Assembly (NCBI RefSeq): GCF_021233435.1 | Contig: NZ_CP089468.1 | Span: forward strand, 2,356,001-2,420,000 | DNA: 64,000 nt | DNA from: Halobacterium noricense | GTDB taxonomy: Archaea > Halobacteriota > Halobacteria > Halobacteriales > Halobacteriaceae | Direction of reading: 5' to 3' | In this document: positions 13,765-14,550 of the stretch, one piece after another | Numbering within the stretch: the stretch's first letter is position 1 | Layout of the letters: each line of letters begins with the position of its first letter | Notes under the pieces: generated by a model | The model's database searches: none | What the model saw: only the letters and a program-made list of their open reading frames with translations | Told to the model about the DNA's origin: nothing | Translations under genes and position numbers: made by a program

Positions 13765-13822
13765 GGGCGAATGGCGACAGCCCGGCCGCTTAGGCGTTTC
13801 CCACCTACGGTCGGAGTGTTCG

Positions 13823-13840
13823 GACGGGCAGACGAAACTG
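13823..13840 (+). repeat. 18-bp direct repeat, copy 1
   Basis: This copy reads GACGGGCAGACGAAACTG and recurs exactly at 14346-14363, 523 bp away. Both lie in the gene-free region. They may be ends of a decayed element or duplicated DNA; I see no other sign of function. Confidence 0.85.
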
Positions 13841-13883
13841 GCTTGATGTGCTCGCCGATACACCCGGTAGGCCTGGTGGTCGC

Positions 13884-14138
13884 CGGGAGAGCAACGCTCT
13901 CCCGAGGCCTCGGAAATCGGAGATTTCCGGCGGATTGAAAGCGCGAGGCGCGCGTGGCGGCGAAGCCGCCACGTTTTGCAGCGGTTGGCGAAGCCGACCG
14001 CCCACTCGGCGAACCCCGGCGTTCGGAAGACGCTATGCGTCTTCCGCAGTCGACCGAGAGACGCCGACGGCGTCTCTCGGGATGACGAGAGGACTTCGTC
14101 CTCTCGAACCACCCATCAGAAACGCATAGCGTTTCTGA
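13884..14138. repeat. Array of eight short hairpins with 3-nt loops
   Basis: Hairpins lie at 13884-13904 (stem 9, loop aac), 13911-13929 (8, gga), 13953-13973 (9, gaa), 13981-14001 (9 with one G-T pair, gaa), 14024-14046 (10, tat), 14054-14080 (12, gac), 14086-14106 (9, ttc) and 14116-14138 (10, ata). Seven stems are perfect and the stem sequences are unrelated, so this is not a copied repeat. Spacing is 5 to 23 bp. Loops are always three bases. Confidence 0.95.
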
Positions 14139-14345
14139 GGACGACGCAAGCACGAGAGCGAGCAACGCGAGCGAACGTGCGCAGCGAGCCGCGGGAGTGT
14201 CGTGAGTGCAACGAACGAGACCACGGAAGACGAGCACTGCGAGTCTCCCGACGGTCGAGACAGCCGAGGGCTTTCAGCTGTTCCCCCACAACTCTGCTGC
14301 TGGGAACTACTTATCTGACACTACCTTACGGCCGGGCAGTATTCA

Positions 14346-14363
14346 GACGGGCAGACGAAACTG
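14346..14363 (+). repeat. 18-bp direct repeat, copy 2
   Basis: Exact copy of 13823-13840, placed about 20 bp before the 121-bp inverted-repeat element. The flanking bases differ between copies after the 18 bp. Confidence 0.85.
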
Positions 14364-14383
14364 CGGAGACGACTCGGCCTTGT

Positions 14384-14504
14384 GAAAGCCCTCGGCGCGC
14401 TCGCGGTCGTTCGCTCGCTGCGCTCCTCGTCACTCGCGACGCTCGTTCCTGTGGTGCTTACGTCGCGAAGCGACCACGCAAGCGCGAGCGCGCCTCGCCC
14501 TTTC
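14384..14504. repeat. MITE-like 121-bp element with imperfect inverted ends
   Basis: The two 22-bp ends match in inverted orientation at 18 positions, with perfect blocks of 5 (GAAAG) and 11 bp (GCGCGCTCGCG). The right end plus eight flanking bases also matches 13929-13953 in inverted orientation at 24 of 25 bases, so this sequence occurs at least twice in the region. No gene lies inside. Miniature inverted-repeat element is my best guess. Confidence 0.5.
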
Positions 14505-14550
14505 AATCCGCCAGGAACCGGCTGGCCCGCCGGCTAAAGCTATCGTCGTC

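Follow-up and report, generated by a model that had tools for sequence, protein, structure and literature searches.

REP/BIME and BOX-type repeats are built of short palindromic units that occur in varying numbers, with GTAG/CGTC tags and an associated transposase as further marks of REPs. MITEs of the IS6 family share their ends with an IS6 element, carry 8-bp target duplications, have no transposase gene and reach many copies. Among haloarchaea, the PATEs of Haloquadratum are noncoding, palindrome-bearing mobile repeats that are related to IS605-type elements and are without terminal inverted repeats or target duplications (PMC3119063). The palindromic elements of Rickettsia are small units found in frame in genes (PMC10969869). 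On the mutational side, template switching at perfect inverted repeats of yeast inverts spacers of 3 nt, among them GAA/TTC (PMC8604942), loop inversion is an expected footprint of template switching in RNA genes (PMC8794818), and DNA hairpins with a GNA loop and a closing G-C pair are exceptionally stable (PMC4686876).

Here we focused on a 255-bp run of hairpins within a window (the whole stretch of DNA analyzed, 64,000 nucleotides) of the genome of Halobacterium noricense. An earlier note on this DNA had described eight perfect or near-perfect hairpins with 3-nt loops, and seven of them are indeed perfect, while the remaining one contains a G-T pair; the closing pair is uniformly C-NNN-G throughout the run (Table 1). 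The regularity in which that note had seen the sign of a mechanism is not a matter of chance, since 1,000 dinucleotide shuffles of the 255 bp yielded on average 0.017 hairpins with 3-nt loops and stems of ≥8 bp, versus 7 observed. Across 464 kb of the same genome (20 sampled stretches and the window), 3-nt loops are also in excess, with 75 found versus 18 in a single shuffle, a count that includes the seven of the window run and several more from similar hairpin strings; loops of 4 to 9 nt in the same 464 kb numbered 24 to 42 versus 13 to 22 after shuffling. The fold of the run reached a z score of −11.9 as single-stranded DNA and of −7.0 as RNA. The run is not single copy, having 40 matches in its own genome at up to 95% identity.

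Table 1. Features of the hairpin run and its carrier (window coordinates)
Feature	Position	Strand	Description or basis
Likely 8-bp target duplication, left flank, CTACGGTC	13805..13812	.	Read from sequence; 6/8 match to right copy
MITE with IS6-type ends, carrier of the run	13813..14325 (~513 bp)	+	Alignment with 26 TIR-bounded copies
Left terminal repeat of MITE, GGAGTGTTCGGACGGG			Diverged
Right terminal repeat of MITE, CTTATCTGACACTACC			
Block A	13880..13928	+	Hairpins 1-2, linker AGGCCT, flanking 5-bp direct repeats GGTGG/GGCGG; present/absent as a unit among copies
Hairpin 1	13884-13904		Stem 9 bp, loop AAC; perfect
Hairpin 2	13911-13929		Stem 8 bp, loop GGA; perfect
Core long-range stem, left arm (GGATTGAAAG..GCGAGG region)	13932..13946, approximate	+	Kept in nearly all copies
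Block B	13953..14002	+	Hairpins 3-4, linker TTTTGC; copy alignment
Hairpin 3	13953-13973		Stem 9 bp, loop GAA; perfect
Hairpin 4	13982-14000		Loop GAA; one G-T pair
Block C, separately mobile palindromic element	14023..14139	+	Hairpins 5-8; in-frame insertions, class-wide search
Hairpin 5	14024-14046		Stem 10 bp, loop TAT; perfect
Hairpin 6	14054-14080		Stem 12 bp, loop GAC; perfect
Hairpin 7	14086-14106		Stem 9 bp, loop TTC; perfect
Hairpin 8	14116-14138		Stem 10 bp, loop ATA; perfect
Block E, two imperfect hairpins	14196..14253, ends approximate	+	Present/absent as a unit: 228-bp vs 285-bp copies
Core stem, right arm (CCGAGGGCTTTCA)	14264..14276, approximate	+	Copy alignment, sequence reading
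Likely target duplication, right flank, TTACGGCC	14326..14333	.	Read from sequence
Older inverted degenerate element, same core family, abutting the MITE	14335..14530, right edge approximate	-	Inverted matches; also in G011

The carrier of the run is an IS6-family MITE. Aligning the copies revealed a 17-bp terminal inverted repeat (TIR), and 33 complete TIR-bounded elements were retrieved from the same genome: 26 MITEs, six elements of ~697 bp and one degenerate remnant. The window copy was left out of this set because its terminal repeats have diverged, and it was assigned to the MITE family by alignment. The MITEs and the ~697-bp elements alike carry GGYRGTGTTCAGATAAG at each end, with the left end diverged in the window copy, and the ~697-bp elements encode an IS6 transposase (NF033587, 199.8 bits). 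From these shared ends, we infer that the IS6 transposase moves the MITE. Exact target duplications of 8 bp were found around 15 of the 26 MITEs and around 2 of the 6 IS copies, compared with a 6/8 match at the window copy. The presence of terminal inverted repeats and target duplications rules out that window-type MITEs are PATEs. The MITEs range from 113 to 609 bp, plus one composite of 1,641 bp, and are filled with hairpins in place of a transposase gene, except for the composite, which bears another element's gene. This composite (G000:C1:1582271-1583911; L011, L068) is flanked by an exact 8-bp duplication, and its inserted open frame of 458 codons resembles a transposase. Sequences similar to the left arm of the core stem also occur in repeats of other haloarchaea. 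A search of the whole viral collection for viral carriage returned one exact match only, and searching the papers covered for strings of the repeat sequence brought up nothing relevant.

The MITE arrived in one step, with its hairpins together, between two genes. The closest genome at the locus (G011; 92% over the flank) has an orthologous locus that runs from gene to gene with only the older inverted element in between, and this locus can be aligned to the left and right of the window insert, across a gap of ~523 bp. A stretch of ~35 bp stands on both sides of the insert in the window and is single in G011. In those other congeners whose matching stretches were read, no hairpin element lies beside the same gene; one locus (L318) is too short to judge. 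These comparisons bear on the proposal of the earlier note that the palindromes had been created repeatedly at this place, hairpin by hairpin, and not copied. The stems are unlike one another and their excess over chance is extreme, as such local creation would have it, but the stems recur in unchanged order in other copies, and the nearest relative lacks the whole segment. De novo creation is thereby contradicted at the window locus, and we consider it highly improbable. As a separate observation, the left end of the MITE (13813-13840) matches the end of the older inverted element as a 26-nt direct repeat of 92% identity, as if the two elements had exchanged ends.

Copies of the MITE differ in length (113, 228, 282, 285, 391 and 431 to 609 bp) according to the hairpin blocks they contain, and blocks A, B, C, D or E sit at fixed slots; the 228-bp copies have no strong hairpin. 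GGYGG repeats border block A. In G011, the older element at the locus contains this block; in the window, the same element is without it and has CCGCC repeats at the junction. Two MITE copies resemble losses of block A between the 7-bp repeats GATTTCC. We observed possible tandem G-A pairs, a motif that is stable in DNA, in the imperfect hairpins of 14196-14253 (near the loop, by eye) and in the core sequences GCGAGG/CCGAGG. A block D-like string containing a hairpin with 17-bp arms was also seen elsewhere in the genome (L259 160-275; G000:C1:30160-30275), adjoining the apparent end of a cold-shock-type gene.

Block C also moves independently of the MITE, as seen from its insertions in genes. 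It is found in frame and without a stop in truD of one congener (G010), in a conserved gene of another (G007) and in a gene of the same genome that we take, from its sequence, to encode a DUF2070-like membrane protein. The three inserts are flanked by 5-bp duplications as read from the sequence (GACGT, GACGT and GACAC). Empty sites in congeners cover two of these three genes: truD is uninterrupted at the insert site in the other 12 genomes of the genus, H. noricense included, and the gene of G007 is likewise uninterrupted in the other 12. All three inserts share one reading frame, as would be expected if the host gene is under selection. The truD case shows that a hairpin block is able to enter a conserved gene in frame. 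No further genic insertion of block C was recognized among 242 haloarchaeal genomes, leaving three cases from one genus. The four additional matches of the block C peptide that were inspected (L326, L328, L331 and L332) were dismissed, as their frames look spurious by eye.

A related pair of hairpins with the linkers GTGGTT, TCATCA and AACGAC was found in at least 120 stretches; the matches listed for this pair are haloarchaeal, with one labeled only Euryarchaeota. A covariance model of this two-hairpin module, whose E values are rough and whose counts per genome are lower bounds owing to capped scoring, detected it in 219 of 242 class genomes and in 67 of 73 genera. In a phylum-wide sample, all 52 genomes with the module belong to its own order or closer, and none of ~240 genomes outside that order matched. 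The outer stem bases CGARA and the linkers are conserved across the class. Restriction to one lineage where the module is nearly universal, this conservation, and the uniform C-NNN-G closing pair of the window run would all fit a repeat selected by a protein, as in REP/BIME, in which a hairpin- or cruciform-binding protein or a transposase retains perfect stems with 3-nt loops. A DNA-binding protein of this kind could account for the conservation of the stems, and its selection could operate alongside template switching, but the inversion of loops requires a mutational event regardless. As an explanation in its own right, we regard protein selection as rather unlikely.

Near gene ends, a second repeat family starts with a GCGCACTTTTTGCGC-like sequence and has the same hairpin pair (L086, L090 and L093; L272 near 9420); this family may be terminator related. 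In other genera of the family (L088, L089, L096, L104 and L106), the hairpin pair lies within an outer stem, GCCTCGGGGTC/GACCCCGAGGC, with which it would form a three-way junction. The resemblances of this junction to hammerhead ribozymes and box C/D RNAs were assessed by eye and gave no fit.

To compare loops and arms, we followed individual slots across related copies, which are not independent observations. Inversion of the loop with unchanged arms occurs in slots B1 and D5 and in one case in slot B2. The B1 loop is GAA in 9 copies and TTC in 4, with no intermediate loop sequence seen among the compared copies, the D5 loops are ATA and TAT, and the B2 loops are GCA and once TGC. The most similar pair among the 12 long copies (23/542 differences) includes two loop flips. 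Arms change as well: slot C4 has three different stems, CAGAACGC, CAGAACCC and CAGAAACGC, each perfectly paired, and both-sided changes were found at 13 of 19 pairs in stems preselected as perfect. In the module, loops of the forms R-N-A or T-N-Y make up 120/135 (89%) and 80/99 (81%) against a random expectation of 25%, an excess whose significance is overstated because the classes were defined after viewing loops from the same loci and the sequences are related. Loop orientation is biased by slot, with GAA 46 versus TTC 20 in the first module hairpin (H1) and TCC 21 versus GGA 8 in the second (H2). As the hairpins in the both-sided-change and orientation tables were chosen for perfect arms, these tables are silent on mismatches. 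Recent MITE copies do contain mismatches and G-T pairs (slots A1, B2, D4 and D5), and arm correction is therefore incomplete. DNA energy parameters assign the same energy to every triloop and so do not bear on the choice of loop.

Perfect hairpins with paired arm changes are usually read as RNA selection, and the earlier note had named a conserved RNA structure supported by compensatory changes as a finding that would speak against palindrome generation. Under the RNA explanation, selection on a transcript would maintain the stems, with compensatory changes arising by ordinary substitution; the both-sided changes, the RNA fold score of the run and the conserved linkers TCATCA and AACGAC speak for it. 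The both-sided changes thus exist, but the G-U intermediates that an RNA should leave are nearly absent: they account for 5 of 1,655 paired cells in the module (0.3% of standard pairs), where the first hairpin is partly fixed by the search pattern and the second has 49 more cells unpaired, many in the loop-adjacent column, compared with 24/330 (7.3%) in 13 haloarchaeal tRNAs folded by computation. This scarcity argues against selection at the RNA level. Moreover, both loop orientations occur, which an RNA would present differently, and blocks are gained and lost freely. No Rfam family was matched, the window giving one subthreshold chance match and the 116 kb of module loci one ordinary tRNA. 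We consider a structured noncoding RNA improbable.

Taken together, the loop flips, paired arm changes, loop classes and scarcity of G-U pairs favor a process at the DNA level, and we favor template switching during replication, acting on DNA hairpins, over selection on RNA. The relevant fold of the module would then be that of DNA, and the loop inversions would be made by template switching. The flips are known from comparing copies and were not seen happening, and flipped loops could also have been exchanged or spread by recombination between copies. Template switching, which the earlier note had named as a possible source of the hairpins, is thus plausible for maintaining and flipping them, given the arm-preserving loop inversions and paired arm changes, but not for their local origin.

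With a rough probability of 0.65, our reading is that the run is the cargo of an IS6-type MITE, consisting of ready-made triloop hairpin modules whose arms and loops are rewritten by template switching. In this scheme, one insertion of the MITE between two genes brought the run, whose blocks are ready-made members of a haloarchaeal hairpin-module family with stems mostly of 8 to 12 bp, a C-G closing pair and a 3-nt loop. The module DNA itself would fold into very stable triloop hairpins, and a polymerase would at times copy one arm from its partner arm or use the opposite strand as template, so that arms stay nearly perfect while loops flip. Deletion between the short repeats beside them would remove blocks, and block C, at least, can also insert alone.

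More tentatively, and at somewhat less than even odds, the modules could constitute a class-wide haloarchaeal family of mobile DNA hairpins, continually rewritten by template switching (perfect arms, R-N-A/T-N-Y flips) and including a block that inserts in frame. Many copies, two loop orientations and scarce G-U pairs point to a DNA process in a repeat present in about 9 of 10 sampled haloarchaeal genomes. If this holds, archaea would have their own counterpart to the palindromic elements of Rickettsia, and these modules would keep a natural record of archaeal template switching, a process that could then be measured on multicopy elements whose empty sites are known.

The window element resembles other IS6-family MITEs in its ends, target duplications and copy number, and differs from them in bearing hairpin blocks that occupy fixed slots in varying combinations. 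With PATEs (PMC3119063) it shares being a haloarchaeal, noncoding and palindromic mobile repeat, unlike them having both terminal inverted repeats and target duplications. REP/BIME and BOX-type repeats (for REPs, PMC3733652) are similar in their short palindromic units of varying number, whereas here each unit has its own stem. Block C is, like the Rickettsia palindromic elements (PMC10969869), small, palindromic and in frame in genes, with a predicted extension of the protein; it differs in its host organism and in having several separate triloop hairpins per element, and the likeness lies in insertion behavior, from three genic cases in one genus. Finally, homogenized arms and inverted 3-nt spacers, including GAA/TTC, are shared with template-switch mutation (PMC8604942, PMC8794818), which has been described as separate events in genes, whereas here its signature recurs in a class-wide repeat family.
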